Shown here piece after piece: positions 1,894-26,130 of a DNA stretch of 26,889 bases. The notes under the pieces were generated by a model. It was not told the origin of the DNA, searched no databases, and saw only the letters and a program-made list of their open reading frames with translations. The stretch lies in IMG/VR virus record IMGVR_UViG_3300020171_001757, positions 1 through 26,889 of that record. One strand, 5' to 3'. How positions within the stretch are numbered: position 1 is the first letter of the stretch; each line of letters begins with the position of its first letter. The translations under genes were made by a program, and so were the position numbers. Source of the stretch: a virus.

Positions 1894-1907
1894 ACTATTT
1901 TTTATAA

Positions 1908-2681: not shown

Positions 2682-2700
2682 ACATTTTTAAATTTAATTA

Positions 2701-3474: not shown

Positions 3475-3479
3475 ACTTT

Positions 3480-4103
3480 TTACCAATGCTTGATGAACAT
3501 CCACGATAAAGCTCTATCATGATTTCCATCTTCTGGTCTTCCTAAAATATACCAATTATTAAAATCATATGCTTTAGCATAAGCATCAACAATATATCTA
3601 ACACCACGATAATTCCTACTTTTTATTGTATCTAAATAATCATGACCTGCTATAATACCACCCTTTTTTACTTTTTCTGTCCATTTCATTAGATCCATAG
3701 CCACATAACCAAAACCGTGATTACCATCAATGTAAACAAAATCTAAACTACGTTTAGGAAAATCTGATAAAGCTTCAAGCGATGTTTTTTTAATTAATTT
3801 ACAATTAGGATATTTAGATGTTCTTTCAACTGCATAGTTATAAACATCATCAATTGTTTGTCTATGTTTTCTATCTAAACTAATAATCCTTCTATAAATA
3901 TTATCTTCACTATTTTGCCAAGGATCAATGCCATAAATTTCAAAACCAGCTTCACAATAACCAATAATATTTTGTGCCCAACTAACACCTATTTCAACAC
4001 CTTTTTTAAAACCTAACTGTTTAAAAAATTCTGGTAAATCATCTCGCGAACAATTAGGTATCCAATATGGTGCACCTTTTTCTTTTAAAACATCAATATT
4101 CAT
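3480..4103 (-). CDS. Class I SAM-dependent methyltransferase
   Basis: 207 aa from the ATG at 4101-4103, whose ATGA overlaps the TGA stop of the upstream methyltransferase; a start 21 bases upstream is possible. GVEIGVSWAQN is motif I of the Rossmann fold that binds S-adenosylmethionine. YGIDPW is the acidic end of strand 2, and LDFVYIDGNHGFGYVAMDL, followed by KGGIIAGHDY, covers motifs II-III. The D-GNH layout resembles the Methyltransf_24 type found in sugar-modification clusters. It follows another methyltransferase with the same DADH/DGNH layout, so the pair may come from an old duplication. Probably O-methylates a sugar or lipid in the cassette's product. Confidence 0.82.
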   Translation of the reverse strand: MNIDVLKEKGAPYWIPNCSRDDLPEFFKQLGFKKGVEIGVSWAQNIIGYCEAGFEIYGIDPWQNSEDNIYRRIISLDRKHRQTIDDVYNYAVERTSKYPNCKLIKKTSLEALSDFPKRSLDFVYIDGNHGFGYVAMDLMKWTEKVKKGGIIAGHDYLDTIKSRNYRGVRYIVDAYAKAYDFNNWYILGRPEDGNHDRALSWMFIKHW

Positions 4104-4675
4104 TTGATTACTGCCCAACCACATCTAGGCAATTCATAAATCATATTATCTTTAAAAAATTCATTAACTGCTTCTATAACACCAAATTTAACTCCAGTAT
4201 ATTTAGCTCTATAATGACTATAATCATCTCCAGTTATAAATCCACCTTTCTTAACTTTTGGATACCAAACCTTTATATCCTCTAAACATCCTTCATAAGT
4301 ATGATCGGCGTCAATATAAATTAAATCAAAATATTCATCAGGAAATCTACTAGCCGCATCAAAAGTATACTCTCGATAAATCTTAACAAATGGTTTATCT
4401 TTAATCATTTCCATTACATCATTATACATTTTATTCAATCGTTCTTGCGAATAACCACAATCATTTCTAGAAATAACTCCATCATCAATCCAAGCATCTA
4501 CTCCTACTGCTATTTCTGGATTATGTTGAATCATTAAATTAAAATTAAATCCTTCAAATACTCCAATTTCTGCAATTTTTTGACAGTTATATTTTTCCAT
4601 AAAAGGTTTCCAGATCCTACGTTTATTTGTAAATTTAAGTGCTTGTAAGTCTTGTACTGATTTAGGCATACCCAT
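4100..4675 (-). CDS. Class I SAM-dependent methyltransferase
   Basis: 191 aa. KIAEIGVFEGFNFN is the SAM-binding motif I, GVDAWI ends strand 2, and FDLIYIDADHTYEGCLEDI with KKGGFITGDDY gives the downstream motifs of Methyltransf_24-like enzymes. The start overlaps the upstream glycosyltransferase by 14 bases (the third residue, ATG at 4669, is an alternative). The stop overlaps the next methyltransferase in an ATGA, so the genes are translationally coupled. The IDADH motif, the strand-4 acidic motif, resembles that of O-methyltransferases. Substrate not determinable. Confidence 0.83.
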   Translation of the reverse strand: MGMPKSVQDLQALKFTNKRRIWKPFMEKYNCQKIAEIGVFEGFNFNLMIQHNPEIAVGVDAWIDDGVISRNDCGYSQERLNKMYNDVMEMIKDKPFVKIYREYTFDAASRFPDEYFDLIYIDADHTYEGCLEDIKVWYPKVKKGGFITGDDYSHYRAKYTGVKFGVIEAVNEFFKDNMIYELPRCGWAVIK

Positions 4676-5408
4676 ATTTTTGAAATAATTTAGTTAATCG
4701 TTCGTTAATTATAGGTTTTTCTAATTCATTTTTACCATACATTAAAATATCTATTGCTCTAATCTTACCCCAATATATTCTATATGGATGAAAATGAACA
4801 ACTTTTATTGGTTTAATTGCTTTCTCATAACATAATTTAATTTTTCTTACCCCAAAATTATAGGTAATATTTAATCTTTTTATCCTTGAATTGATATTAT
4901 TAAAATTATGTGCTGTTAATTTCCAAACTGTAGTTTCTTCATTTTTTCGTCTACCAAAATGTTTGTACATATCATCTTTAATCCAATGAAAAATATCACC
5001 ACAATTACTATTAAAAAAATAACTACCTGTATTCCATCTTGCTTTTCTTCCATAATCTGTTAAACCTATATCTACACCATCTAATTCTAATTCTTGTTCA
5101 GTGATTACTTCTTGTTGAAAAGCATCAAAATCATGAAACCAATATAATTCTCCTTGTTTAAAAAATCCTGAATCAAATAAAGTTACTGTTGTATTAATTT
5201 TACTTGCTTGTTTCCAAGCTTCACAAAAATTTTCATTACTAACAACTATAGCTTTAACACCATTATACTCCCAGGGAAAATTTGTAACTAATATAATATC
5301 TTCTAATTTCCAACCTAACTCTAAGCTATTATCTATTTGAAGTTTCTGTAATCTTTCAGTGTCTTCATCAAAACCATTTGGATTAATATAAATAAACAAA
5401 TTTTTCAT
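4662..5408 (-). CDS. GT-A-like glycosyltransferase (putative)
   Basis: 248 aa. The N-terminus (MKNLFIYINPNGFDEDTERL) and a WFHDFDAFQ segment, with DFD as the probable DxD, suggest a GT-A-fold sugar transferase. RWNTGSYFFN is a typical acceptor-loop motif and a late KVVHFHPYR provides a candidate metal-binding His. I do not recognise a named family. The start codon (5406-5408) overlaps the TGA of a decayed HNH endonuclease tail (5405-5488), and the stop overlaps the next methyltransferase by 14 bases. Position and gene size fit the glycan cassette. Confidence 0.7.
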   Translation of the reverse strand: MKNLFIYINPNGFDEDTERLQKLQIDNSLELGWKLEDIILVTNFPWEYNGVKAIVVSNENFCEAWKQASKINTTVTLFDSGFFKQGELYWFHDFDAFQQEVITEQELELDGVDIGLTDYGRKARWNTGSYFFNSNCGDIFHWIKDDMYKHFGRRKNEETTVWKLTAHNFNNINSRIKRLNITYNFGVRKIKLCYEKAIKPIKVVHFHPYRIYWGKIRAIDILMYGKNELEKPIINERLTKLFQKYGYA

Positions 5409-5488
5409 TTAATTCCTTTAAAATAATTCATCCAGTATTCTCTATTAAAATTAGTTTTTATGTGACAGAATTCCAAGATGAATGACTT
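5405..5488 (-). pseudogene. Decayed HNH endonuclease, C-terminal tail only
   Basis: Between the stop at 5492 and the glycosyltransferase start at 5408 one frame reads FCHIKTNFNREYWMNYFKGI, then TGA. This matches the C-terminus of the intact HNH endonuclease at 23581-24270 (CNKCHVKTNYNRNYWIRYF). The frame has no ATG and begins just after an in-frame stop, so only the last ~27 codons survive. Its TGA overlaps the next gene's ATG as ATGA, as in the intact copy. I infer a homing endonuclease gene that once sat between the two glycosyltransferases and was deleted. Confidence 0.82.
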
Positions 5489-5491
5489 TTA

Positions 5492-6178
5492 TTAGAATGG
5501 TTTTTCATAGTCTATATTTTTTATAAGCCACTTACGAAGTGGAATCCCTGAACCCCAATACTTCAAATCATAAATAGGTATTCGTTCAGAATGCGTGAAA
5601 AAACGCATCGCTCTATGGGTTTTAATCTGCACCACTGGATTTTCTGTTCTGTAATATTCTATTTTGTCAAAAACATCTTCTTTCTTGTGCCGTTCTTTGG
5701 GAAAATTCTTTTCTTCCACACTCCATTGCGGGGCTCCTTCAAATAATTCTTTTAAGCGTTTGATATAAAATTCCCTGCCAACTATTTGAGAATGAGTTGC
5801 TCCTTCTTTTTTATAAAAAAAATAATCCCTCAAATCTGGCATAACATATAAATTTGAATTTCTATAACATCTATCATTTCTAGCTGGTCTATATGTAAAA
5901 TAATCTGGTGGATAAAGACAATCGGATTCAGCTGAAATTACAAATTCTGTTTTAGCCTCCATAAGTCCAAGTTGTACTTGACGGAAAAAATTAAATCCAG
6001 ATACTCCAATATTATCACCAACACAAATATTTTTACCAAAATTAATTGGTTTTTGAGTTACACTAATTATTGGCAAATCACCACAATTTTTTAAAATTGT
6101 TTCTTTAATTCTATTTTCAAAGTTCGGATCTTCCATATTACTACTACAATAAATAATAGTAGCATTATTTTCATTCAT
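5492..6178 (-). CDS. GT-A-like glycosyltransferase (putative)
   Basis: 228 aa. ATIIYCSSNMEDPNF, ISVTQKPINFGKN, FVISAESDCLYPPDYF (ESD in the DxD position) and GREFYIKRLKEL give a GT-A-like enzyme related to the product of 2701-3474. The start at 6178 overlaps the end of a decayed HNH ORF (6171-6248) by eight bases. The 3' end is followed after three bases by another HNH scar (5405-5488), so this gene is flanked on both sides by remnants of the same endonuclease family. Acceptor unknown; cytoplasmic by lack of membrane segments. Confidence 0.75.
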   Translation of the reverse strand: MNENNATIIYCSSNMEDPNFENRIKETILKNCGDLPIISVTQKPINFGKNICVGDNIGVSGFNFFRQVQLGLMEAKTEFVISAESDCLYPPDYFTYRPARNDRCYRNSNLYVMPDLRDYFFYKKEGATHSQIVGREFYIKRLKELFEGAPQWSVEEKNFPKERHKKEDVFDKIEYYRTENPVVQIKTHRAMRFFTHSERIPIYDLKYWGSGIPLRKWLIKNIDYEKPF

Positions 6179-6248
6179 ACATTTTACTAAAATAATTAAT
6201 CCAACCTTTTAATGCTTGACTAATTTTTTGTTTAATTTTTTCTTTCAT
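6171..6248 (-). pseudogene. Decayed HNH endonuclease with internal deletion (25 codons)
   Basis: A 25-aa frame from ATG 6246-6248 reads MKEKIKQKISQALKG, then WINYFSKMYE. The first part is a NUMOD3 DNA-binding motif like residues 20-29 (KEKIRQAHKG) of the intact endonuclease. The end matches its C-terminal YWIRYF. The zinc ribbon and HNH core between them are absent, so this looks like one internal in-frame deletion. It overlaps the upstream methyltransferase by 17 bases and the downstream glycosyltransferase start by eight. It could still be translated as a small peptide, but no function is implied. Confidence 0.7.
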
Positions 6249-6816
6249 ACTTTTTAATAATAATTAATGTATCTTGTTTTTGTTCTTTAGAAAATTCAAA
6301 TACTTGACAATTATAATCAATCAATTGATCTTTTAGTCTATCTGGATTCTTACAATCTTCAATGATATAAAGTACATCTTTTTTTCCAAGAAGTGGCATT
6401 AAAATTCTAAATGCTCGTAATTGTATTATACTATTATGTCCCGCATCATCTATTACTAAATCAATATCTAAACCAATCTTTTTAATTAAATCCAACATCT
6501 GATTTCTTCTATTTGTATTCACAAGCATCGTTGTAATTCTGTCATCCTCAAATAAAGTACTTTCATCAATATCTACTCCATAAATATGAGCATTAGGAAA
6601 AAAATCTCGCCACATTCTTAAACTTGCTCCAACTTGATAATGTTCAGGCGTCCATTGCATTGTTTTTGAACTTCCAATTCCTAATTCAAGAATTTTTTTG
6701 AATACATATTTTTTATCTTTTAAAAGTTCATAATAAACTGGTGTATAATTATGACCGATTTGTGGACATTTATCTGTCCCATACTTGTAAGCTAATTCAC
6801 AAAGTTCTGTCAACAT
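6232..6816 (-). CDS. SAM-dependent methyltransferase, macrocin-O-methyltransferase-like
   Basis: 194 aa. The YGTDKCPQIGHNYTPVYYEL opening, ILELGIGSSKTMQW, then GASLRMWRDFFPNAHIYGVDID, LVIDDAGHNS and YIIEDCK are the ordered motifs of sugar O-methyltransferases related to demethylmacrocin O-methyltransferase. In that family SAM binds at ELGIG and the acidic DDAGH and EDC residues coordinate the metal and substrate sugar. Start chosen at MLTELCELAYKYGTDK. The gene overlaps the upstream GT-B gene by 20 bases and the HNH scar downstream by 17. Likely methylates a sugar hydroxyl in the cassette's product. Confidence 0.88.
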   Translation of the reverse strand: MLTELCELAYKYGTDKCPQIGHNYTPVYYELLKDKKYVFKKILELGIGSSKTMQWTPEHYQVGASLRMWRDFFPNAHIYGVDIDESTLFEDDRITTMLVNTNRRNQMLDLIKKIGLDIDLVIDDAGHNSIIQLRAFRILMPLLGKKDVLYIIEDCKNPDRLKDQLIDYNCQVFEFSKEQKQDTLIIIKKYERKN

Positions 6817-7624
6817 ATTGTAAATATAATAATTTATATTCTATAGCAATTTTTTCCCAAGTATATTTTTCTAAAATTTGAATTCTTCCACTTAACTTTC
6901 TCAACGCTTGTTTAATACTTTCAATATCACGTTCAACTAATATAACTCCTTCAAGTTCACTTGCTATACCAACATCTGTTGAAATTACTGGCTTATTCAT
7001 CGCTAGAGCTTCTAAAGTAGGATTATTACAACCTTCAGAAATACTAGCTAAAACTAAACAATCTATTTGTTTATAAAATTCTGGCATTCTTTCATATGGA
7101 AAATCATTTAGTCTAGCAAGATATAAAAGTTTTAAATTTAATTGATTACATGCTTCTTGTATTAATAATAATCCTTTATGTTCTGCTGAATCTTTAACAC
7201 CAACATAACCAACAACAAATTCTCGATTAAACAAATATCCATCTACTCCATTGGGTATATAAATTACATTATCTTGTTTAGTTAAATCTTTTAATTTACT
7301 AGCTAAAATAGGATTCTGAGCAATACAACAAACTGTTTTTTGATAAATTTCTATTAAATCATTCAATTTATCAAACCTTTCGTCAAGTGTACGAAATGAT
7401 GCTAAAGTCGTAAATATTTTATCTTTATATTTTAAAATGTACTGTTTTGATTTTGTTATCCCACCACTGTATAAAAAATGTATTACATCATATTGGTTAC
7501 CATTAAGCAAATTCTTAGCATAAACAATATCAACCTCATCATTAACCCATTGCCTTTTTAAAGCCTCTGCTCTTAAAGTAGTTGCCCATCTAAATTTATC
7601 GTTGTGAATTAATAAAATTTTCAT
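6797..7624 (-). CDS. GT-B glycosyltransferase (GT4/GT1 type)
   Basis: 275 aa, shorter than the usual ~350-400. MKILLIHNDKFRWATTLRAE begins the N-terminal Rossmann domain and NVIYIPNGVDGYLF is the linker typical of GT4. The C-terminal domain has VVGYVGVKDSAEHKG and a donor-binding ASISEGCNNPTLEALAMNKP with the E-x7-E pair that contacts the nucleotide sugar. Retaining enzymes of this family add hexoses to lipid-linked or protein-linked glycans. Its 5' end overlaps the deacetylase-like gene by 29 bases. The short N-terminal half may reflect a reduced acceptor domain. Confidence 0.9.
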   Translation of the reverse strand: MKILLIHNDKFRWATTLRAEALKRQWVNDEVDIVYAKNLLNGNQYDVIHFLYSGGITKSKQYILKYKDKIFTTLASFRTLDERFDKLNDLIEIYQKTVCCIAQNPILASKLKDLTKQDNVIYIPNGVDGYLFNREFVVGYVGVKDSAEHKGLLLIQEACNQLNLKLLYLARLNDFPYERMPEFYKQIDCLVLASISEGCNNPTLEALAMNKPVISTDVGIASELEGVILVERDIESIKQALRKLSGRIQILEKYTWEKIAIEYKLLYLQYVDRTL

Positions 7625-8078
7625 AACTCCACCAATGAAACGACTTAATATTATAATTTTCCCACTTACCTTTACGAATATTACAAAATTTTAATCCTAA
7701 ATCAGAACATGCATCTTTAATATTTTTACTCTCTCTATTCCAAGGCGCAAAAAATGTACTAATTTTTTTTGCCTTACCAATCATTCTAATTGAATTTTCT
7801 TGCCAATAATTTAATGATTGAGCTAAATCAGTAATACATTCCTCATAACTTAATATACTATAATCTTTATGTTCCCAACCATGTAATCCAATTTCAAGAA
7901 ATGGTACTGTTGCTAAATAATAAAATATACCCTGATTTAACCATAGATCTTTCATTATAACTGCCACTGTATGAATTTGATTACTTTCAATAAACTTCTT
8001 ATGAATCTCTTTAAATGTATATAAACAAGTATACACTGAAATATCATCATCACGAAATAAAATGTTGATGGGTTTCAT
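7596..8078 (-). CDS. Polysaccharide deacetylase-like (NodB/CE4) protein
   Basis: 160 aa. NILFRDDDIS carries the catalytic and metal-binding Asp pair of motif 1. EIGLHGWEHKDY carries the HxxxH metal site of motif 2, and STFFAPWNRES is motif 3. This is the NodB homology core of carbohydrate esterase 4 enzymes, which remove N-acetyl or O-acetyl groups from sugar polymers using a divalent metal. No signal peptide is visible, unlike secreted members, so it probably acts in the cytoplasm on a precursor. It overlaps genes on both sides by about 29 bases. At 160 aa it is near the lower size limit for the domain. Confidence 0.85.
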   Translation of the reverse strand: MKPINILFRDDDISVYTCLYTFKEIHKKFIESNQIHTVAVIMKDLWLNQGIFYYLATVPFLEIGLHGWEHKDYSILSYEECITDLAQSLNYWQENSIRMIGKAKKISTFFAPWNRESKNIKDACSDLGLKFCNIRKGKWENYNIKSFHWWSYENFINSQR

Positions 8079-8655
8079 AACGTAAATATGGATTATTTTT
8101 TATATCTAAATTAATACGATTAACTTTTAATTCAGGAAATTGTCGTAAAATTATTGGTAAACTTAATTGATCTCTTTGCCCCCAACGACAAATTTCTGCC
8201 CACCAAGCTTCATTAAACTGATTAACTATTGGGATATGTTTTCTAATAATTACACCTCCCATTGCCATATCTTTTTTATCAGGTAATCCTATTTTTTCAT
8301 AATGATTAACTTGTTTAATAGCTTCCTCATAAACATTTCTATCTCTACTACGCCAAACATATTTTATCCACTTTAACTCCCAATCAATATTTTTACTTTT
8401 ATAATGTCTAAAAAATGCTATATCATTATCACCTAACCATTCTTTAACTAATTCATCGGCTGGTTTTAAAAGATAAATATTACCATCAACCCAAATTGAT
8501 ACATTACAATCTAAAAATTTATGTGGTAATATTTTATAAATTTTAGCATTCATTACTGGTGATACAAACTTATCATAATCCAAAAAAACTTTTATATCAT
8601 TTCTTAAATTATCTTTTCCGTTGGTTATGGCTGTATAAATTTCTATTTTTGGCAT
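8050..8655 (-). CDS. DUF616/TOD1-like glycosyltransferase
   Basis: 201 aa. IEIYTAITNGKDNL, MNAKIYKILPHKFL, VSIWVDGNI (DG in the DxD place), DIAFFRHYKSKNIDWE, GGVIIRKH and CRWGQRDQLSLPIILRQF follow the order of the DUF616 (TOD1/MUCI70) family of putative glycosyltransferases, common in capsule and glycan loci. No transmembrane segment. The start overlaps the upstream methyltransferase by 13 bases and the 3' end overlaps the deacetylase by 29. Family recognition is from motif memory, not an alignment. Confidence 0.85.
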   Translation of the reverse strand: MPKIEIYTAITNGKDNLRNDIKVFLDYDKFVSPVMNAKIYKILPHKFLDCNVSIWVDGNIYLLKPADELVKEWLGDNDIAFFRHYKSKNIDWELKWIKYVWRSRDRNVYEEAIKQVNHYEKIGLPDKKDMAMGGVIIRKHIPIVNQFNEAWWAEICRWGQRDQLSLPIILRQFPELKVNRINLDIKNNPYLRYETHQHFIS

Positions 8656-9092
8656 ATAATAAAATGATACTCTTTATTAAAATCTTTTTTAATGTACGTA
8701 GAAAAAACTTCTTTTCCTTCATAAAATTTCCAAAGTTTCCTGTATGGTTTATAATCCTTACCTACAAAACCAAAAATAGCTTTTCCACCCTTTTTTGTTA
8801 TTCTTAAAACTTCATCTATCATTTTTTGAGGATTATCTACAAATTCATACATCCCATTACATAATACTATATCAAAAATATTATCAGGAAAATTAGTTTT
8901 TTCAATATTACCAGTATAAGTTGGTTTTAATCTATTATTAATATCAATAGTTTCAAAACCATAATTCCAATGAATTGATTTACCAACATCTAATACTTTA
9001 CCTTTAGCATTTTCTTTTACCCAGTTATTATACCAAAACCTATATGGCGATTGGACGAAATCCTTTTTTAACTGCTTTATCAAAAGGGACAT
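8643..9092 (-). CDS. Small SAM-dependent methyltransferase (Methyltransf_11 type)
   Basis: 149 aa. GKVLDVGKSIHW is motif I, FETIDINN the end of strand 2, FPDNIFDIVLCNGMYEFVDN motif II, and ITKKGGKAIFGFVG motif III. This is the minimal class I fold. The Gly-rich loop DVGKS is shorter than the usual DxGxGxG. The protein ends soon after strand 5, which is short for the family. The ATG at 9092 lies 53 bases inside the end of the upstream asparagine-synthetase-like gene, an unusually long overlap; no better ATG is close by. Substrate unknown. Confidence 0.82.
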   Translation of the reverse strand: MSLLIKQLKKDFVQSPYRFWYNNWVKENAKGKVLDVGKSIHWNYGFETIDINNRLKPTYTGNIEKTNFPDNIFDIVLCNGMYEFVDNPQKMIDEVLRITKKGGKAIFGFVGKDYKPYRKLWKFYEGKEVFSTYIKKDFNKEYHFIICQK

Positions 9093-9804
9093 TGTTGTAT
9101 ATTAAATATTCATAAAGTGGAGCTTTATAATTACGATTTTTTAATTCTGGCGTAAGCCAAAGAAATTCTTGAACAAGATCAGTATCTAAAAATGGATACC
9201 TAATTTCTATTTCATAAAGTGCTGCAATTTCCTCAAGTTCATTTAAGTATTCTTTCTGCATACCTTGTCTAAAATTTTTCCATTCATACAACTTATCAGG
9301 AAATTTACCTTTAAATTCACTTTGTTTTGGAAATAAAGCATAATCAGAAAGTATTTCATCACCTCCCTGTCCTGATATACAAACATTTCTACCTTCTTGT
9401 TTAGCAGTATCAAACATATAAGCCACACCCATTGATGCTATATCTTTTATTGCTTTATCATTTATTTTCCCTTTAAGAAAATTATAATACTTTTGCCATA
9501 ATTCTTTATTCATTTCAGATATTTGATAATTTTGGATATAATACAATCTCTTCTGAATAATATTTTTATTCTCATTATTAAAAATAGTATATGCTTTAAA
9601 ATCTATTTTTTGTTTTAAAAGTGCATTACTAATAGCTCCACTATCATATCCAGACGATAAACCCATAAAACATCCATTAATAGCTCTTTTATTTATTGCT
9701 AGTGTAAATCTTGCTAACCAATTATCATAAGTTGTTTTGTATTGATTATTAAAATCAAATTTATACTGATAAAATTCTATAATATCTTTATTGACAATTT
9801 TCAT
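9040..9804 (-). CDS. Asparagine-synthetase-like ATP pyrophosphatase domain (no glutaminase domain)
   Basis: 254 aa from the ATG at 9802-9804, whose ATGA overlaps the TGA stop of the upstream GT2; an ATG nine bases earlier (9813) is in frame. GLSSGYDSGAISNALL is the PP-loop (SGGxDS type) that binds ATP. ISGQGGDEILSDY and IEIRYPFLDTDLVQEFLWL are the further signatures of the AsnB synthetase domain. The N-terminal glutamine-hydrolysing domain with its catalytic Cys is absent. The enzyme would therefore use free ammonia or a partner, or may amidate an acid group such as a uronic acid. A UDP-sugar dehydrogenase-like gene in the same cassette could supply the acid; that link is inference. Confidence 0.85.
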   Translation of the reverse strand: MKIVNKDIIEFYQYKFDFNNQYKTTYDNWLARFTLAINKRAINGCFMGLSSGYDSGAISNALLKQKIDFKAYTIFNNENKNIIQKRLYYIQNYQISEMNKELWQKYYNFLKGKINDKAIKDIASMGVAYMFDTAKQEGRNVCISGQGGDEILSDYALFPKQSEFKGKFPDKLYEWKNFRQGMQKEYLNELEEIAALYEIEIRYPFLDTDLVQEFLWLTPELKNRNYKAPLYEYLIYNNVPFDKAVKKGFRPIAI

Positions 9805-10577
9805 ATTTTCCATTTTTCTTTAATTTCTTTATAATAATCTCCCCAAACACTTAAAGAATATTTCCAACAGGCTTCATTATTTGATGGATTTTCTTCTGTA
9901 CCATTATTATGAGTTCTTGAAAAATTTCTATGCTTATGGGCAAACCAAGCATTTTTATTAACCATCAATTTACCTCCAGCCTGCCAAGTTTTAAAAACCA
10001 TTTCATGAGAATCTTGATAAAGTGGACCATAACCTTCTGTTTGTAATTCTTTAATAACTTTATCCCACCAACTTCTTTTCATTATCCAACAACTTCCTTG
10101 CATCGCCATTGTTTCATCAACCATTATTTTTGTCCTTTCATTAGTTCGACTATCCCATTTTTGACCAGCAAATTTAATTCCTCCTTGAATAACTAATTTT
10201 TCATAATCAATATAGGGTATATCCATTATTTCCCATTTAATAGGATCTAAAAAATATCTTCTAGGAGTTACAATCCAATCATCTTGTATAACTCCTAAAA
10301 TTATTCTATCAAAACCTTTACAAAACATACAATGTTCATCTGTTCTCATTATATATTCACCCTTTGAAACTAATACTCCTGCATTAATAGCTCCTCTCAT
10401 TCCTCTATTTCTACCCAAATGAACATATTTAACTCTCTTATCATCAATAATACTATTAGTCCAATAACCATCTAAAACAGCAATAATTTCAAATTCTTCT
10501 TCAAAATTTTCAAGGATCGAATTTATTGTTTTATTAAGTAAAGGATCTCTATAACTTGGAATTATTATGCTCAACAT
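9801..10577 (-). CDS. Family 2 (GT-A) glycosyltransferase
   Basis: 258 aa. MLSIIIPSYRDPLLNKTINS, EIIAVLDGYW, GRNRGMRGAINAG and YIMRTDEHC (TDEH in the DxD place, ~79-82) are the ordered motifs of a GT2 enzyme. MAMQGSCWIMKRSWW and SHEMVFKTWQAGGKLMVNKN match the acceptor side of the paralogue at 937-1893, but this copy lacks its zinc ribbon. It is the first gene of the cassette in transcription order and starts eight bases after the peptidase stop. Its stop is ATGA-coupled to the next gene. Confidence 0.9.
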   Translation of the reverse strand: MLSIIIPSYRDPLLNKTINSILENFEEEFEIIAVLDGYWTNSIIDDKRVKYVHLGRNRGMRGAINAGVLVSKGEYIMRTDEHCMFCKGFDRIILGVIQDDWIVTPRRYFLDPIKWEIMDIPYIDYEKLVIQGGIKFAGQKWDSRTNERTKIMVDETMAMQGSCWIMKRSWWDKVIKELQTEGYGPLYQDSHEMVFKTWQAGGKLMVNKNAWFAHKHRNFSRTHNNGTEENPSNNEACWKYSLSVWGDYYKEIKEKWKI

Positions 10578-11920: not shown

Positions 11921-13030
11921 TTACTGTATGAGGGCTACTAGATCCAATGTTCCTTGTTGCTGAAAAGATACAGATGAATATGCTGAAAATCTAATTTTAG
12001 GAACACATATATCTATTAAGAATTGAGCATCATAAGTCGTAGAAGCTGCAGCAGCATCTATTTCAAACTGAGTTGGTGTAAATGTAGCTGTACCACCTGA
12101 AATCGAATGCTCTCCTAATTGTATCCAATTATCTGTATCAGCAGCTATTTCTGAATTACTAGTAGCCGCATAAGGATAATTCTCAGTAGCAGAAAATGAA
12201 CCAATATAACCCCATACTTTAATAATTGCTGATGATGCTATTGCTGATGGCGAAGGCGAAACCGAAGGACTAATACTTACAGAAACTGAAGGACTTCTTG
12301 ATGGTGATAATGATACACTAACGGATGGACTAATGGAAACCGAAACGGAAGGTGATACAGACGGACTAATAGATACTGAAACGGATGGTGAAATGGATGG
12401 TGAAACAGATGCTGAGGGACTAACTGACGGTGAAACAGATGGTGAAACTGATACTGAAGGACTAACTGATGGTGAAACAGATAAACTAACTGATGGAGAT
12501 CTAGAAGGACTTAATGAAACTGATACTGAAGGAGATCTAGAAGGACTTAAAGAAAGAGAAACTGATGGACTTAATGAAGGACTAATTGAAGGAGAAGCTG
12601 AATTTGGAGGTGATACTGATACTGAAACAGAAGGTGAAATGGAAGGACTAATAGAAAGACTTATTGATGGAGATAATGATACTGAAATGGAAGGAGAAAT
12701 AGATACTGAAACTGATGGTGAATACGAATGTGAAGGACTAGTTGAAGGTGATACTGATGCCGAAGGACTAACTGACGGACTTTTTGATACTGATACCGAA
12801 GGACTAACTGATGGTGAAACAGATACTGAAGGACTAACGGATGGTGAAACAGATACTGAAGGTGATTGAGTTGAACCACTTGTATACTTACAAACAAAAT
12901 TTAAAATCTTTGAAAAGTAAGTATCTACTATAACTCGACTTGCTACAGCCTGTGTCGCCGTTTCTGTTGTTTGAAGTGTTATTCCATCAAATATCTTGAT
13001 GGATTTTACTTTGTTAATTGATTCTGCCAT
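11921..13030 (-). CDS. Virion-type protein with a long Ser-Pro-Val repeat (mucin-like) insert
   Basis: 369 aa. Residues 1-55 (IKIFDGITLQTTETATQAVA onward) and 268-369 (AIIKVWGYIGSFSATENYPY onward, ending QGTLDLVALIQ) look like two halves of one beta-rich domain. Between them residues ~56-262 are almost pure SPSVSPSVSVS-type repeats with occasional Ile, Leu, Ala and Arg. Nearly every other residue of this ~205-residue stalk is Ser, so it would be extended and is a natural target for O-glycosylation. It probably belongs to the tail or capsid surface. The 14-gene sugar cassette downstream makes glycosylation of this protein an attractive but untested idea. Confidence 0.8.
   Translation of the reverse strand: MAESINKVKSIKIFDGITLQTTETATQAVASRVIVDTYFSKILNFVCKYTSGSTQSPSVSVSPSVSPSVSVSPSVSPSVSVSKSPSVSPSASVSPSTSPSHSYSPSVSVSISPSISVSLSPSISLSISPSISPSVSVSVSPPNSASPSISPSLSPSVSLSLSPSRSPSVSVSLSPSRSPSVSLSVSPSVSPSVSVSPSVSPSVSPSASVSPSISPSVSVSISPSVSPSVSVSISPSVSVSLSPSRSPSVSVSISPSVSPSPSAIASSAIIKVWGYIGSFSATENYPYAATSNSEIAADTDNWIQLGEHSISGGTATFTPTQFEIDAAAASTTYDAQFLIDICVPKIRFSAYSSVSFQQQGTLDLVALIQ
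12245..12865 (-). repeat. Degenerate short tandem repeat coding for Ser-Pro-Val
   Basis: About 620 bases inside the gene at 11921-13030 consist of degenerate 6- to 12-base units. On the plus strand they read as variants of GGACTAACTGATGGTGAAAC. The variation is mostly synonymous or swaps Val, Ile, Leu and Ala, which suggests old expansion with selection for the Ser/Pro pattern. Copy number is likely to vary by slippage or recombination. A long plus-strand frame rich in Thr-Glu-Gly-Asp (12333-12869) is just the antisense reading of this repeat. Confidence 0.85.
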
Positions 13031-17915: not shown

Positions 17916-19832
17916 TTATTGAACTGATTGTGCTACTGGAGGTTGTCCTGCACCTTGTCCTCCACCTTGTTGGTAACCTTCTTCAGCTTTAATATGTTCG
18001 TCAAAAAGCTGCTGTTGCTGTTTATAAGCATCTTGATTTTCTTGAATAAAAGCTAAATGAAGTTGTGTATGTTCAGGACTCCATAAAGCTTTCGGTGTCA
18101 TTGGTACTTGCTGACCTGCTGCTATTTGCATATTTTCTTGATGTGCTAAATCTGCTGTATCTTGAGGAGCTCCTCCACCACCAGCTGATTGATGCGATGC
18201 CGCTTGTTTCATCATTTCTTGTTTATACTGTTCTTCTTGCATCTTTTTCATACGTTCGATAACATCACCAACATTTGAAATTGAAAGTTTTTCAAGTAAA
18301 GTTTGTGGATCAATAAGTTTAGCTTCCGCAAGTCTCATTAACCATTCTTTTTTATTCTCTTCATTATAAGCAACTTCAGGAACAATGGTTACTTTAATTT
18401 TTGCTGCTTTGACTTTCATAGTCCCTTCAGGAATCTGTTCATTTGAAACCGCTGAAGCTCCAATAAATTTAATAGATTCACCCTCTTCTGTAATTTCTTG
18501 ACTTGCTATAACATGATCTTCAATTAATTCTAAAATAAATTCTCCAACATTTTCTAAAAGTTTTTCTAAATTTTCAATTGGCTCAGCAACCGTACCAGCA
18601 TCAGCTGCTTGTAAAGCTTCTAATGCCTTGCCAGAAGAAATAGTTCCTGGAACTCGACCCAAAGATGCTTCTCTTATACCACCCAATTCTTCAATCCATC
18701 TTTCTAAGTTTGCAAGATATGAAAAAGGAGCTTCAGGTAAAGGAGCTAAATTCATTTGTGAAGGAGCTACATTACCTTTATAATAAATTTTTTCCGCTCC
18801 TTTATCTGTAATAGTTGAAACTTCAACTCCTTGTTTAATAAGATATTTACCAGCTAACATTCTCTGTATATATCCTTCAATTTGAGAAGCTGTTTTATCT
18901 AAACTTTTATTAATAGAAATAAGTGGCTTGATCCAAGGATCACTATAAATTGAATTTGTTTCTTTTTCCGGATTATAAACAAATATTGGATAACGCCGAT
19001 AGGGTTTTTCCGATACTTTTATTAATTGTTTTGAAGCATTTGTAAAAACTTTTATTTTGGGTTTATTATCTATATCTAAATACTTAATCCACAATTCCTT
19101 TACGATAACTGATTCCATATCTTTTGACGATCCTGTTGTATCTGAACCTTTTTTTTCCATTTCAAGTAATTCACCATATTGTGTTGAAGCTTGTTTATTA
19201 TCTGATATTATTTCACTCTGTATAGTATAATCTTTATTATTTTTAATATCTGATACTGGTTTTTTAAAGGCCTTAATTATAAAACGAGCTGATTGTAAAT
19301 CTTTAGCAAAAGGATCAATTAAAATATCAAATGTATCATCAACCCATATATCAATTTCGTCTTGATTATTTTTTTTAACCATTGCAATTTCAAGTACACC
19401 TACCGAAAATTTTAAAGACGAAACTATAATATCTGTTAAAAGTAAAGGGATTTGTTTTGTTCTATAAATATACTGTAAAATTTTATTCTTCTTACGAGCT
19501 TCCTCAAGTGAAATATCTTCAGAATTATCAGGTTGAACTTCCCACCTTGGTTGACTACGTTTAATAAAATTCTTAACACCTCTAATTTGAGCTTTAATTT
19601 TATTAATAACACGCCTAACCTCTCCAGAAGTTGAAGGAATAGATTGAACTTTATTAATTGTTTTATTATAAACAACCCAATGATCACCTCGTGCAAAGCG
19701 TTCATTCAAATACCAATCTCTATGATATTTTAAATATGATTTTAATGTATCATCAAAAAGCGTATCAATAAAAATAGCAACTTCTTTATCACCAGCTTTA
19801 ATATCGCCTTGTAATGTTTTTAAATTAGTCAT
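17916..19832 (-). CDS. Portal protein
   Basis: 638 aa. The order is an N-terminal helical region (YLKYHRDWYLNERFARGDHW), VRRVINKIKAQIRGVKNFIK, a DEIDIWVDDTFDILIDPFAK segment, YRRYPIFVYNPEKETNSIYS, SLDKTASQIEGYIQRMLAGK and GGIREASLGRVPG, then a Gln-rich tail (KQQQQLFDEH, GGGQGAGQPPVAQSVQ). This is the pattern of large phage portal proteins, the 12-subunit ring at one capsid vertex through which DNA enters. The size and the position between terminase and capsid genes agree. The ATG overlaps the SpoVG-like gene by four bases (ATGA). Confidence 0.9.
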   Translation of the reverse strand: MTNLKTLQGDIKAGDKEVAIFIDTLFDDTLKSYLKYHRDWYLNERFARGDHWVVYNKTINKVQSIPSTSGEVRRVINKIKAQIRGVKNFIKRSQPRWEVQPDNSEDISLEEARKKNKILQYIYRTKQIPLLLTDIIVSSLKFSVGVLEIAMVKKNNQDEIDIWVDDTFDILIDPFAKDLQSARFIIKAFKKPVSDIKNNKDYTIQSEIISDNKQASTQYGELLEMEKKGSDTTGSSKDMESVIVKELWIKYLDIDNKPKIKVFTNASKQLIKVSEKPYRRYPIFVYNPEKETNSIYSDPWIKPLISINKSLDKTASQIEGYIQRMLAGKYLIKQGVEVSTITDKGAEKIYYKGNVAPSQMNLAPLPEAPFSYLANLERWIEELGGIREASLGRVPGTISSGKALEALQAADAGTVAEPIENLEKLLENVGEFILELIEDHVIASQEITEEGESIKFIGASAVSNEQIPEGTMKVKAAKIKVTIVPEVAYNEENKKEWLMRLAEAKLIDPQTLLEKLSISNVGDVIERMKKMQEEQYKQEMMKQAASHQSAGGGGAPQDTADLAHQENMQIAAGQQVPMTPKALWSPEHTQLHLAFIQENQDAYKQQQQLFDEHIKAEEGYQQGGGQGAGQPPVAQSVQ

Positions 19833-20344: not shown

Positions 20345-21910
20345 TTATTTTTCATCAATTCTTATAATTGCACAATTATTGGTCAAAAGAATTCCACTAG
20401 TTGCAACTGCATTCTGAATTTCATTCCTTACTACTTTTTTTGGATCAATAATTCCTGCTTTAAAAAGATCTTGATACTTATTTGTTAAAGCATTGTAACC
20501 AATGCCGTGGTCTAATACTTTACCAACAACAGCTTCACCTGATACTCCACTATTATCAGCTATTTTTTTAAGTGGCGCAATAAGTGATTTTCTAACTATC
20601 TCTACACCAGTATTAAATTCCTTATCATGTGATTCTATAACTAATTCATTAATACATCTAAGTAAAGCAACACCCCCTCCTTCAACTATACCTTCTTCAA
20701 TTGCTGACTTAGTTGCATTAAGAGCATCCTCTATTCGATATTTAATTTCAGCTTGCTCTACTTCTGAAGCTCCTCCTACTTTAATATTTGCAATAGAACC
20801 AGTTAAACGTCCTAATCTAATTTTTAATTTATCTTTTTTATACTCATCCTGTTCACCTTTTAAAAGAGTTTTAACTTCTTCAATTCGTCCTGCAACATTT
20901 CCTAAAGCCCCTGCTAAAATTGTTTGATCACGCGATGTAATAACTGAAGCACAAGTTCCACAATCTTCTAAATCTGCATCTTCTAATTTTTTTGAATCTT
21001 CCTTACCTACAACGATAGCATTTGTTAATGTCGCAATATCATAAACTAAATCTTTCTGATAATCACCAAATGATGGAAGTTTTATGGGAATACATGTAAA
21101 TTTTCCTTGAAGATAATTTTGAACTATAAATGCAAGTGCCTGACCTTCTATCTTATTTGCAAATAAAATAAGATTCCTTTCATTCTGATTAATCAATTTT
21201 TGTATAACTGGAACAAGTTGTGCTTGCATTGTTATATCATCAGTACAAATAATAATTTTAGGATCGGTCGTTACTACTGCTAAATGTTTAGGATCATTAA
21301 TAAATATATGTGATTGATAACCTTGATCAAGCTTTGTCCCATTTACATAATCAACTTCTGTTTTTAAAGAATTTGAATTCGTTACTGTAATAGTACCATC
21401 AACTCCAACTTTATTAAGAACTTCAACAATTAATTTACCAATACCTTCATCATTATTAGCTGAAATTGTTGCAATCTGAAGTTTTTCTTTTTCTGTTGTA
21501 ATCTTTTTTGTTTGCTTATCAAGTAATTTAATAATCTTTTCAAGAGCAAAATCCATTCCTCTTTTAATAAGAATTGGATTCATTCCTGATGCTACAGCCT
21601 TATGACCCTCTTCAAACATTGCTCTGAGTAAAACAATTGTAGTCGTTGTGCCATCACCAGCTTCACGATTTGTATTTTCAGCAGCTTCACGACTAAGCAT
21701 AACTCCCATATTTTGTAATTTATTCTTTAAAAATATCGTGCGAGCAACGGTAACCCCATCTTTGGTTATAGTTGGGAATGAACTTTCTTCAAAAATTACA
21801 TTATTACCTCTAGGTCCTAAAGTTGAACCAACGGCTTCTTCTATAACTTGAATCCCTTTTAAAATTTCGTTTCGAGCTTCCTGTCCAAAAAATACTTCTT
21901 TATAACTCAT
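20345..21910 (-). CDS. groEL: GroEL-type chaperonin (Hsp60)
   Basis: 521 aa, against ~540-548 for bacterial GroEL. STLGPRG (29-35), TKDGVTVA (49-56) and AGDGTTT (84-90) form the ATP site. YRIEDALNATKSAIEEGIVEGGG holds the catalytic Asp of the second conserved block. The apical part includes LDQGYQSHIF and LGRLTGSIANIKVGG. All main ATP-site signatures are present, so it is probably active. The flexible GGM tail of bacterial GroEL is missing; it ends in NNCAIIRIDEK. Phage chaperonins are known in some large phages and fold capsid or other virion proteins. A GroES-like gene lies upstream, separated only by an HNH scar. Confidence 0.97.
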   Translation of the reverse strand: MSYKEVFFGQEARNEILKGIQVIEEAVGSTLGPRGNNVIFEESSFPTITKDGVTVARTIFLKNKLQNMGVMLSREAAENTNREAGDGTTTTIVLLRAMFEEGHKAVASGMNPILIKRGMDFALEKIIKLLDKQTKKITTEKEKLQIATISANNDEGIGKLIVEVLNKVGVDGTITVTNSNSLKTEVDYVNGTKLDQGYQSHIFINDPKHLAVVTTDPKIIICTDDITMQAQLVPVIQKLINQNERNLILFANKIEGQALAFIVQNYLQGKFTCIPIKLPSFGDYQKDLVYDIATLTNAIVVGKEDSKKLEDADLEDCGTCASVITSRDQTILAGALGNVAGRIEEVKTLLKGEQDEYKKDKLKIRLGRLTGSIANIKVGGASEVEQAEIKYRIEDALNATKSAIEEGIVEGGGVALLRCINELVIESHDKEFNTGVEIVRKSLIAPLKKIADNSGVSGEAVVGKVLDHGIGYNALTNKYQDLFKAGIIDPKKVVRNEIQNAVATSGILLTNNCAIIRIDEK

Positions 21911-21997: not shown

Positions 21998-22264
21998 TTA
22001 ATTTTCGTGATAATCTGTAATTCCAATTATATCTTCTTTATCAATAAAGAAAAAATCTTCTCCTTGAAAAGTAAGAGGAAAAATAGAATATTTACCAAAT
22101 ATTATAGATGTTCCTTTTTTATAATTTTCATCATTATCAGATAAAACTTCTCCAGTTATAAGACGCTTATCTTCTTCTGACTCTTCAACCACAATATCTG
22201 CTTTAATCTGTGATTTTTTATGTTTACGAATAAGTAAAATACCTTTTTTTGGATTTATTATCAT
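21998..22264 (-). CDS. groES: GroES-like co-chaperonin
   Basis: 88 aa. GILLIRKH begins strand 1. KADIVVEESEEDKRLITGEV covers the mobile loop and the GEV motif; the loop is shorter than in bacterial GroES and keeps a hydrophobic IVV tripeptide like the IVL that docks on GroEL. KKGTSIIFGKYS and the ending FIDKEDIIGITD are the usual VGDxVxFxKY and xEEDILAI motifs. It would cap the GroEL ring encoded next. The changed loop suggests it is tuned to its own GroEL. Identification rests on motif order, not on overall identity. Confidence 0.85.
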   Translation of the reverse strand: MIINPKKGILLIRKHKKSQIKADIVVEESEEDKRLITGEVLSDNDENYKKGTSIIFGKYSIFPLTFQGEDFFFIDKEDIIGITDYHEN

Positions 22265-22454: not shown

Positions 22455-23444
22455 TTATAAACCATCATTATCAAAATCAAAAATCTTTGGTTTTGTTAAA
22501 TTTTCTATATCACGCTGAATACGAGTTTTAGGCTTATCAGGTTCTTCTGGATTATATGGACGAGTCATTATCATATAACCTAAATCATCAACTGCATGAT
22601 CATTTTTCTTTACCGGTTCTTCAGGTTGATTTCGAGTTTTTTCTTGTAATTCAGTTAACTTTTTATATCGATAATTTAAAATTTCAATACATAAATTTGG
22701 ACACTTATCTTTAAAAATATATAAATGTGCTTTACCATTAGAATCTAATTGAAAATATTCACGGATACGTGTAATACGTGCATTAACATCATTATTAGCA
22801 AGAGAAAAATCCCACCCGTGATCATAAAAATCTTCAAGTACTGAATAAGCAATTTCTTCACCTTCTTTAACTTTTGTTCTATTCTTAGCTGCTGTTGAAG
22901 GATCAATTACTTTAATTTGAAAAGCAATATCAGCCGCCATTCTTTTTTGTGAAATTGATTTTAATCTAAATTCAAGATCATCTGACATTAAATATCTAAA
23001 TTGTTCAAACATTTCGCGGCTTGATACTGATGGTAAGGCTGGTTTATAATATTCATCTATAATATATAATCTATTATCAGGCGTCCAGGCTCCAATATGT
23101 GCTGATGTTGGATTATTTTGTCCAAAATCTAATGACATTAAATATTCAGCCTGTTCTATTTCAAATGAATTTATAAAATGAATAGCTGGATTAAAATCAC
23201 AAAATTCAGAACCAAAAATTAATTTACCCGCACGAGAACTAAAATCAATTTCATATTCTTTATTCCAATCAGCGAGTGGCGTACCGATACGTTCCTTTTC
23301 ATACCATTCTTTACCATTTCTTTCAGGATCTTTATTAGGATCTGCACTATAATGAAGCATCGCTACTGTAAATTTATTCTTTGCATTTTTCCATACTTTT
23401 AGTCCTTTTATTTTTTCAAATTGAACAACATCCTTATACATCAT
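22455..23444 (-). CDS. terL: Large terminase, C-terminal nuclease part
   Basis: 329 aa. WNKEYEIDFSSRAGKLIFGS is the end of the linker region. YLMSLDFGQNNPTSAHIGAW holds the first RNase H-fold Asp (D106), NRLYIIDEYY the second acidic site, and DHAVDDLGYMI the C-terminal Asp pair. This nuclease cuts the DNA concatemer at packaging start and end. The ATPase half is a separate ORF at 24281-24979. The frame continues five codons upstream of the ATG before a stop (DVANMMYKDV). The ATG overlaps the stop of a 47-aa ORF (ATGA), so this half can be translated alone. Confidence 0.9.
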   Translation of the reverse strand: MMYKDVVQFEKIKGLKVWKNAKNKFTVAMLHYSADPNKDPERNGKEWYEKERIGTPLADWNKEYEIDFSSRAGKLIFGSEFCDFNPAIHFINSFEIEQAEYLMSLDFGQNNPTSAHIGAWTPDNRLYIIDEYYKPALPSVSSREMFEQFRYLMSDDLEFRLKSISQKRMAADIAFQIKVIDPSTAAKNRTKVKEGEEIAYSVLEDFYDHGWDFSLANNDVNARITRIREYFQLDSNGKAHLYIFKDKCPNLCIEILNYRYKKLTELQEKTRNQPEEPVKKNDHAVDDLGYMIMTRPYNPEEPDKPKTRIQRDIENLTKPKIFDFDNDGL

Positions 23445-23584
23445 ATTTGCAACATCTTATTAAGAATCCATTTATAAAAAAATCTTGGTATCCATTTAGG
23501 TTTTTTTCTAAGTAATTCAGTATAAAAAATCTTGGCTTCCATTTTTACTGCTTTACGAAATTTTTTATCTTGTTTTTGACTCAT
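23441..23584 (-). CDS. 47-aa basic protein between the HNH gene and the terminase nuclease
   Basis: MSQKQDKKFRKAVKMEAKIF, then YTELLRKKPKWIPRFFYKWI to the end: basic, helical, with aromatic residues. Its start is ATGA-coupled to the HNH stop and its own TGA overlaps the start of the terminase nuclease part, so the three are translated in series. No homologue recognised. It might be an independent gene or serve only to couple translation. Confidence 0.55.
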   Translation of the reverse strand: MSQKQDKKFRKAVKMEAKIFYTELLRKKPKWIPRFFYKWILNKMLQI

Positions 23585-24270
23585 GTTTTAAATTTCAATT
23601 CAAAATATCTAATCCAATAATTTCTATTATAATTTGTTTTTACGTGACACTTATTACAAAGTGTAATTAAATTTTTCGGATCATTATTCTTCTTATCATA
23701 ATCTATATGGTGAATTGATAATTTTTTTTCTATATCTTCTAATTCTTGTATTTGTGTTTTATCACAAATTTTACAAATATATTTGTCTCGCTCACGAATT
23801 GCTCTTTTTAAAGTTTCTGTCCATTCTTTACCATAATTTATTAATGACAAACCACCTAACCAATTGTATGCTTTATCACCACGTTGTGAATCTGCTATTC
23901 TCATTCTTTGCTCAAATGTCCTTTTCTTATCAGTATTTTTAGCAACTCTTCTAGCGATTGTTTTAATAGATTGCTTTTTCCCAATTGTATGTTTACGACA
24001 TTTTTCTCTAAATTCATCTGTTTTTCCATAACATTTTTGACATCTTCCTTTTTTATATGTACTTAACTCTTTGCCACAATCAATGCATTTTGGTTTACCT
24101 CCTTTCCAATTACTACCATTAACTCCAACTTTACCAGTATGAGAAATTTTAAGTTTTTTAATATGTTCTAAACTTAATTTTTTGCCCTTATGTGCTTGTC
24201 TAATTTTTTCTTTTGTTATATCTGTATGTTTAAAACCTTTATTCTTATGTTGATAAATACCACTTGGCAT
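23581..24270 (-). CDS. HNH homing endonuclease (NUMOD3-type), intact, splitting the terminase gene
   Basis: 229 aa from ATG 24268-24270, eleven bases after the stop of the terminase ATPase part; an upstream in-frame ATG (24426) lies inside that gene. Residues ~18-45 are NUMOD3-like repeats (TKEKIRQAHKGKKLS). C62, C65, C77 and C80 form a zinc ribbon. The HNH core is at ~160-212: YICKIC (C166, C169), LSIHHIDYDKKNNDPKNL with the HH pair 187-188, and TLCNKCH (C205, C208). It should nick or cut a site in an uninserted terminase locus and spread by repair. All catalytic features are present, unlike its decayed relatives at 21907, 6171 and 5405. Confidence 0.92.
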   Translation of the reverse strand: MPSGIYQHKNKGFKHTDITKEKIRQAHKGKKLSLEHIKKLKISHTGKVGVNGSNWKGGKPKCIDCGKELSTYKKGRCQKCYGKTDEFREKCRKHTIGKKQSIKTIARRVAKNTDKKRTFEQRMRIADSQRGDKAYNWLGGLSLINYGKEWTETLKRAIRERDKYICKICDKTQIQELEDIEKKLSIHHIDYDKKNNDPKNLITLCNKCHVKTNYNRNYWIRYFELKFKT

Positions 24271-24280
24271 ATTTTTTATA

Positions 24281-24979
24281 TTATATCTCGATAGAATCGA
24301 AGACAAGCGCCTCAAAAAAAGTCGAATGTTCCGCTGTTGAAATTCCTGTAAATCTACCTTTAGACGAAATTGTTGGTTTAGAAGCAGCATAAGCGTTCTT
24401 AGCCTCGGGTTGAAAACCAATTTCATCTGATAAAATTCCTGAAGCTACATGCATACGAATAACATCTCCTCCTTCTGGTATTGCCCTAATTTCAGAATTT
24501 ATAGAAGGAAATACCATCTTACCGGAAACATGTTGTCCATTATGCTGTGGATTACAAGCAAGATCATAAAACTTTCCATTTTTATAATACCGTTTTAAAA
24601 ATTTTGGAAGATTATCCCAGACAAATTTACTACGTTTTAAAATATCATCTGCGTCTTCAGCTTTTTTCGATTGAAAAAATGTCATTCTAGCTTCATGAAA
24701 CATGGTATCCCATAAATATAAAGTTGTAAAAAGCCAACTCATCATCATTTGACGAGATTTTGGAACTAATAAAAGTTGTTCTTTTAACCAAATATCTACA
24801 AGTATTTTAAGATACTCTTTGTTAGGAAAAAGTTTTAAGGGTGTTTGTTCATCATGGACATCTAATGTTTTCGCCCAATTAATTAAAAAATAATATGGAT
24901 CATCATGACAATTTCCCCACTCAATATTTTGAAGACGAATATCATTTTTTAATTTTTGTAAATATTCAACTTCCAACAT
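24281..24979 (-). CDS. terL: Large terminase, N-terminal ATPase part
   Basis: 232 aa. LLLVPKSRQMMMSWLFTTLY is the Walker A-like ATP site of phage terminases. SGILSDEIGF holds the Walker B Asp and catalytic Glu, and GRFTGISTAEHS is the coupling motif. Intact large terminases run on for another ~300 residues. Here the frame stops seven residues after FFEALV, in FDSIEI, and the nuclease domain lies in a separate ORF (22455-23444) beyond an HNH gene and a 47-aa ORF. The gap to the HNH start is only ten bases, too short for an intron core, so two polypeptides are more likely than splicing. Confidence 0.9.
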   Translation of the reverse strand: MLEVEYLQKLKNDIRLQNIEWGNCHDDPYYFLINWAKTLDVHDEQTPLKLFPNKEYLKILVDIWLKEQLLLVPKSRQMMMSWLFTTLYLWDTMFHEARMTFFQSKKAEDADDILKRSKFVWDNLPKFLKRYYKNGKFYDLACNPQHNGQHVSGKMVFPSINSEIRAIPEGGDVIRMHVASGILSDEIGFQPEAKNAYAASKPTISSKGRFTGISTAEHSTFFEALVFDSIEI

Positions 24980-25656: not shown

Positions 25657-26130
25657 CTACAATTCAGCTAATACTTTAGCTTTGTAGGCTTCACGTTCCT
25701 CTTTATTCATTTTTGTAACATCCTCAAATACGTCATCCTGCAACTTGATATCCTTCTTTTCCGGAGCAAAATCACCGGTTAATCTTGACAATGTTATTAT
25801 GGCATTATTAATTGTACGCCCGTCTTGAGGAATTTCTATTATATCACCTAGTTTTGTTTTTACTAATGTGGTACCATAAATAAGATCATACAATCTTTGA
25901 ACAATTGCCTGTCTATCTAATTTATGTTGTCTAGCTATTTGTCTAAATCCACCTTCCTCTATTTCTAAAGCATCTTGAATTTTTACTTTCTTTAACAACT
26001 TACATGCTTCAGTGCTTGCTAAATTTTCATTCTCTGATTCATACGCTTTCATGTATGCACGTTTACCATTAAATCCATTAATCACATATTCTTGGACAAA
26101 AAGCTGTTCTTTAGGAGTTAAATCAATCAT
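25657..26130 (-). CDS. terS: Small terminase subunit (Terminase_2 type)
   Basis: 157 aa. LTPKEQLFVQEYVINGFNGK and RAYMKAYESENENLASTEAC are the N-terminal helix-turn-helix pattern of Terminase_2/XtmA small terminases, which bind the packaging site and hand DNA to the large subunit. LDRQAIVQRLYDLIYGTTLV is the oligomerisation region, and the end is helical and acidic. It is the first gene of the leftward head operon, ~20 bases from the -10 box at 26150-26155. The leader is very short and has no Shine-Dalgarno sequence. Confidence 0.9.
   Translation of the reverse strand: MIDLTPKEQLFVQEYVINGFNGKRAYMKAYESENENLASTEACKLLKKVKIQDALEIEEGGFRQIARQHKLDRQAIVQRLYDLIYGTTLVKTKLGDIIEIPQDGRTINNAIITLSRLTGDFAPEKKDIKLQDDVFEDVTKMNKEEREAYKAKVLAEL

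Follow-up and report, generated by a model that had tools for sequence, protein, structure and literature searches.

Among tailed phages, the large terminase subunit TerL is used as a hallmark gene, expected to code for one protein, and as a marker for phylogeny. The locus described here raises the question of how this motor protein came to be encoded by two genes with an endonuclease gene between them, and whether the two products would still work as one enzyme. The DNA analysed, referred to as the window, comprises 26,889 nucleotides and corresponds to positions 1 to 26,889 of the uncultivated phage record IMGVR_UViG_3300020171_001757.

The genes concerned are all encoded on the minus strand, and their order, read in the direction of transcription, is TerS, two small ORFs, terL-N, an HNH gene, a 47-aa ORF, terL-C, a GroES-like gene, a GroEL-like gene, the portal gene and a gene for a capsid-like protein. 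TerS, the small terminase subunit (25657..26130; Terminase_2, 5.8e-15), lies upstream of terL-N (24281..24979), which codes for TerL chain 1, a polypeptide of 232 aa with most of the ATPase core. A gap of ten bases (24271..24280) separates the stop codon of terL-N from the NUMOD3-HNH endonuclease gene (23581..24270; Pfam NUMOD3 1.4e-5, HNH 4.9e-5), a secondary insert at the junction whose frame is open from 24426 and whose likely start is the ATG at 24270, giving a product of 229 aa. The basic 47-aa ORF (23441..23584) overlaps by four bases both with the HNH gene and with terL-C, and no homologue of it was found in Pfam, in PHROGs or in the related loci. The terL-C gene (22455..23444) codes for TerL chain 2 with 329 aa, and the gene for a P22/SU10-like portal protein (17916..19832) forms the downstream context of the packaging module. 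The stop-start overlaps of the HNH gene, the 47-aa ORF and terL-C suggest translational coupling. A first-pass annotation had placed all four ORFs of this region as found here and had described the space between the two terL halves as filled by the HNH gene and the 47-aa ORF with four-base overlaps, which is correct; the distance from the terL-N stop to the terL-C start, then given as 837 bases, amounts to 836.

Other genes of the window were named by eye. A GroEL-like ORF (20345-21910) and a GroES-like ORF (21998-22264), both on the minus strand, are located between terL-C and the portal gene, within the packaging and head module. Further away, the minus strand carries a run of ORFs resembling glycosyltransferases, methyltransferases and an asparagine-synthase-like protein (937-10577) and a gene for a protein with a long Ser-Pro-Ser-Val repeat stretch (11921-13030).

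Both halves are labelled as terminase large subunit by PHROGs, with terL-N matching phrog_5989 (8e-11) and terL-C matching phrog_10250 (8e-13) and also phrog_5653, and T4 gp17 and D6E TerL were matched by profile as well. In Pfam, neither half was named above the cut-off. Besides this family match, terL-N contains the Walker B motif ILSDE and the coupling motif ISTA of an ASCE ATPase core, with D185, E186, S214 and T215 invariant in the alignment of chain 1 sequences, and terL-C contains the acidic residues of an RNase H-like nuclease, of which D106, D181 and D286 are conserved in 100% and E131 in 97% of the aligned split sequences, close and distant. The Walker A motif is deviant; in the window it reads K-S-R-Q-M-M-M-S-W, and in all aligned relatives, split and fused alike, it has the form K-[ST]-R-[QR]-x-x-x-[ST]-W, in which the usual GK[ST] is missing. 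The earlier assignment of Walker B, the coupling motif and the nuclease acids was thus right, while that of a Walker A motif applies only in this altered form. Mitchell and Rao are said to have recorded deviant Walker A motifs for TerLs in 2004, and because such forms are on record, the deviation does not disqualify the protein as a TerL. ATPase and nuclease are not found on one polypeptide, but on two ORFs, and this is the case in 44 loci.

These loci were obtained from IMG/VR, which was scanned first with the two halves themselves and then with their profiles, and the relatives are designated by L-numbers. The relatives recovered are either close, at 56-83% identity, or distant, with identities as low as about 30%. 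In the close clade, every locus holding both halves has two ORFs, and likewise split halves are present in a distant set (L074-L080, L082, L086, L087, L089, L093, L096). Altogether, 44 related split loci including the window are broken in the same loop, a number that counts loci and not independent events, a few contigs being near-copies of each other. The split is not due to chance, since the same split recurs in dozens of other contigs.

What lies at the junction differs from locus to locus. The distance between the halves ranges from overlaps up to 2237 bases, with 60 bases or fewer in 19 of the 44 loci, more than 60 in 24, and one locus for which no ATG was found; the junction phases 0, 1 and 2 are represented by 10, 17 and 17 loci. 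In L002, L005, L007, L008, L017 and L019, terL-C starts within 10 bases of the terL-N stop, with nothing between and the ORFs touching or overlapping. The junction of L003 holds a basic ORF of 50 aa and that of L013 several ORFs, while HNH genes are present at the junctions of L011, L037 and the distant L077. L090/L091 have the opposite gene order, terL-C lying upstream and being followed by an ORF without an assigned name, TerS and terL-N. In L017 and L033, the halves lie in one frame with a single stop codon between them; in two relatives with one such in-frame stop, the match to phrog_2, a general TerL profile, continues across the stop, and the two halves are therefore collinear with an entire TerL. 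Judged from these loci, the halves are separate and independently translated genes, because the junctions are empty or varied, occur in all three phases and, in L090/L091, have the genes in reversed order.

Two kinds of additional sequence were observed around the split genes. A gene for a zincin-like protein with an HExxH motif is located directly upstream of terL-C in about 12 relatives (L006:1132-1512, L010:5631-5996, L013:2962-3465, L016:3041-3478, L023:2365-2736, also L012, L020, L025/L026, L036, L037 and L039); among the fetched loci its homologues occur at this junction only, and it has no Pfam family above the cut-off. Large inserts, which probably are inteins, are present near catalytic residues at a few recurrent sites, namely around residue 285 of terL-C in L020, L023, L027, L032, L033, L042 and L086 and around residue 180 of terL-N in L006 and L037, with L087 as a further insert-bearing locus. 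An intein was considered as an explanation for the split in the window and rejected, the window halves being free of such an insert.

The genetic code of some relatives is a separate matter. In L025/L026, in-frame TGA codons occur in both terL halves (L026 994-1689 and 2107-3081) at otherwise invariant glycine columns, and these relatives thus use genetic code 25. These codons were not counted as breaks, and the recoding is irrelevant to the split. Since TGA as a glycine codon is the code of Absconditabacteria and Gracilibacteria, part of the lineage probably infects members of these groups. The ORFs of the window end with TGA, and in L034, which comes from a 700-kb genome bin, one TGA is found at a tryptophan column.

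The coupling motif is followed by a helix, and in every split member the break is located in the loop between this helix and the next strand. In the close clade, the strand just after the break has the pattern W-x-N-x-x-N-x-F-x-V-x-x-L-H-Y-x-A-D-P. For chain 1, a model with a pLDDT of 73 was obtained, in which residues 1-165 are mostly good and residues 170-232 poor; it superposes on residues 64-312 of T4 gp17 (Z 14.1) and on residues 9-188 of D6E TerL (Z 5.8). The loss of confidence from residue 170 on is compatible with a fold that would need a partner, and the shallow alignment of 19 sequences used for the model may also explain the low-confidence tail. The AlphaFold model of chain 2, with a pLDDT of 45, was too poor for use; the chain 2 profile gives a weak alignment to D6E TerL (E 8e-4) that starts at residue 195. 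For D6E TerL, it was shown that the ATPase domain ends at the linker to the nuclease, residues 230-241, and that Y213 and R224 belong to the lid, with Y213 contacting the P-loop arginine (PMC5727402). By this alignment, roughly 35 residues of the ATPase domain, comprising the last strand and the lid, lie on the nuclease chain (about residues 20-80 of chain 2), and the cut falls within the ATPase domain instead of at the border of the two domains. The first-pass annotation had assigned the ATPase to one chain and the nuclease to the other, a division that the D6E and T4 alignments do not bear out. The position of the cut inside the ATPase domain is the main reason for which the two chains are expected to pair.

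For the age of the split, a maximum-likelihood tree of 40 sequences was calculated. The clade of the window comprises 20 rows, all of them split, with a support of 100/100. A larger group of 36, with weaker support (81/65), contains 33 split sequences and three with a single ORF (L084, L088, L094), and the outgroups RM378, API480, ctEqG8 and a TerL from rat faeces are single ORFs. The tree has several long branches and needs four changes between the split and the single-ORF state. Fission or fusion must have happened more than once, since three relatives carry one ORF; one old fission followed by three later fusions is possible, and so are several fissions at one permissive loop. When the C half was searched against INPHARED by tblastn, only three distant TerLs were obtained, two of which were inspected and are single ORFs, and the same collection yielded no TerL for the distant C half of L082.

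Both halves are under purifying selection, with pN/pS values of 0.10-0.34 for close pairs. The N and C distance matrices are correlated (r = 0.74 for the close clade, 0.70 for the distant set), which fits joint inheritance; shared phylogeny alone can produce such values, and contact between the chains is not implied by them. A second complete terL, the presence of which would have spoken against a functional split gene, was looked for and was found neither in the window record nor, with the general TerL profile, in nine longer relatives, which showed only the split locus or nothing; all of these are metagenomic contigs classed as linear, and a further TerL may lie outside them. Each half is present as one copy in the nine longer relatives; the N profile detects one terL-N in each of them, that of L037 being interrupted by an insert, and further distant relatives have single loci.

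Taken as a whole, these data are best explained by an inherited two-gene TerL, the chains of which are translated separately and form a two-part motor, and this reading is given a probability of about 0.8. Neighbouring genes would be translated into two proteins, chain 1 with the P-loop, Walker B and the coupling motif, and chain 2 with the final strand of the ATPase sheet and the lid subdomain, followed by the linker and the RNase H-like nuclease. The chains would bind to each other by completing the ATPase fold, an assembly that is likely on the grounds of the alignment, and the composite subunit would do the job of one TerL, forming a ring on the portal, translocating DNA and cutting it. 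The loop at which the chain is cut would be a permissive insertion site for genes, holding in the window the HNH gene and the 47-aa ORF, which are probably translated in a chain by way of the stop-start overlaps.

The first-pass annotation attributed the split to the HNH gene, in the manner of a free-standing homing endonuclease that recently inserted into an intact terL, like MobE in nrdA of phage Aeh1. Phage genes split by homing endonucleases have been described (PMC2988022), as have clusters of such endonucleases close to terminase genes (PMC10448857), and the NUMOD3-HNH gene is located exactly at the junction; such an origin is nevertheless improbable, since L002, L003 and L005, which belong to the clade of the window (100/100), and also L007, L008, L017 and L019 are split without an HNH gene there, as are most of the split relatives. 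In addition, relatives of the window HNH with up to 57% identity are found at places other than the junction in L044, L017 and L010, and one with 38% identity is found at the junction of L037. The occurrence at several other places suggests that the HNH gene is mobile, and the simplest reading is that it entered a permissive site. The split is thus older than the HNH gene, which arrived later and is incidental to it. A group I or split intron, with the exons joined in RNA as for terL of phage ICP1, the Jug phages and Sepunavirus AICAT, is the least probable of the explanations considered here. Introns of terL are documented and HNH genes often ride in introns, but no group I or group II intron was detected by Rfam in the window or the region at the gathering or at relaxed thresholds, in agreement with the absence of a group I core noted before. 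Further, in the relatives free of inserts no intact frame reappears; the stop and a new start are kept, in three phases, and lie so close together that there is no room for an intron. In L090/L091, where chain 2 is encoded upstream of chain 1, cis-splicing cannot join the halves in order. Nearly as improbable is a programmed frameshift or a readthrough of the stop codon yielding a fused protein where the ORFs touch. The loci L017 and L033, with one stop codon in a common frame, would be suited to it, but the distribution of phases leaves no common recoding event that serves all loci, and in 24 of them the halves are more than 60 bases apart. Because gaps, phases and gene order vary in this way, neither an intron nor a frameshift nor readthrough serves all loci. 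The earlier description of TerL as two separate, unspliced polypeptides is borne out by the ORFs, the PHROGs labels and the lack of an intron match.

If two polypeptides are made, they might also act as two separate enzymes, with a ring of the ATPase alone and a nuclease that comes into play for cutting alone, and with no stable 1:1 complex of the two. Motors of the phi29 type translocate DNA without an active nuclease, and the gene order is reversible, with up to 2.2 kb of other genes between the halves. This arrangement is considered unlikely, though less so than the three explanations above, since the alignment places the last ATPase strand and the lid on chain 2, which would leave chain 1 alone without parts of its ATPase domain. 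The N and C distances also co-vary, though shared phylogeny could account for this.

For the two-chain motor, a wider consequence can be put forward tentatively, at well below even odds: a whole lineage of tailed phages would have motor subunits that are obligate heterodimers, produced by dividing the ATPase fold. Lid and nuclease would then make up a detachable module, open to loading, exchange or expression at a ratio other than 1:1 in packaging. A lineage in which TerL is always encoded by two genes would be misannotated or missed by pipelines expecting the full-length protein, and the short nuclease-only TerL families of PHROGs, phrog_10250 and phrog_5653, may hold other split or interrupted terL genes. 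In a natural split motor, the lid-nuclease chain could be omitted, mutated or titrated without artificial cutting, so that the debated role of lid and nuclease in translocation would become directly testable. In the open literature, with most subscription papers outside its scope, introns, inteins and split genes for ribonucleotide reductase or polymerase were found, and no lineage with an unspliced two-gene TerL.

The locus shares features with several known systems. Like T4 gp17, D6E TerL and RM378 gp17, the window encodes an ATPase core with Walker B and coupling motif, the nuclease acids, and TerS and portal as neighbours. These three proteins are single polypeptides, RM378 gp17 being encoded by one CDS of 1527 bases, whereas the window has two genes cut inside the ATPase domain and a deviant Walker A motif. 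In ICP1, the Jug phages and Sepunavirus AICAT, terL also appears as two or more ORFs, and endonuclease genes are frequent in the vicinity. However, these genes carry introns, and RNA splicing restores one protein in ICP1 and the Jug phages, whereas the window is without an intron and even empty junctions of its relatives separate two ORFs. DNA polymerase A of the OM43 phages MEP401 and MEP402 is another conserved phage enzyme encoded by two ORFs with a small ORF between; this is a different enzyme, for which an intron was left possible as the cause (PMC10580990). In NrdA of Aeh1 and the polymerase of phage 25, one enzyme is made as two unspliced polypeptides, and the halves were shown to yield an active enzyme. 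In Aeh1 nrdA, the split was caused by a homing endonuclease, whereas the split described here extends across a lineage and is present also without an endonuclease. The closer analogue is phage 44RR, where an untranslated stretch with no endonuclease divides the gene.
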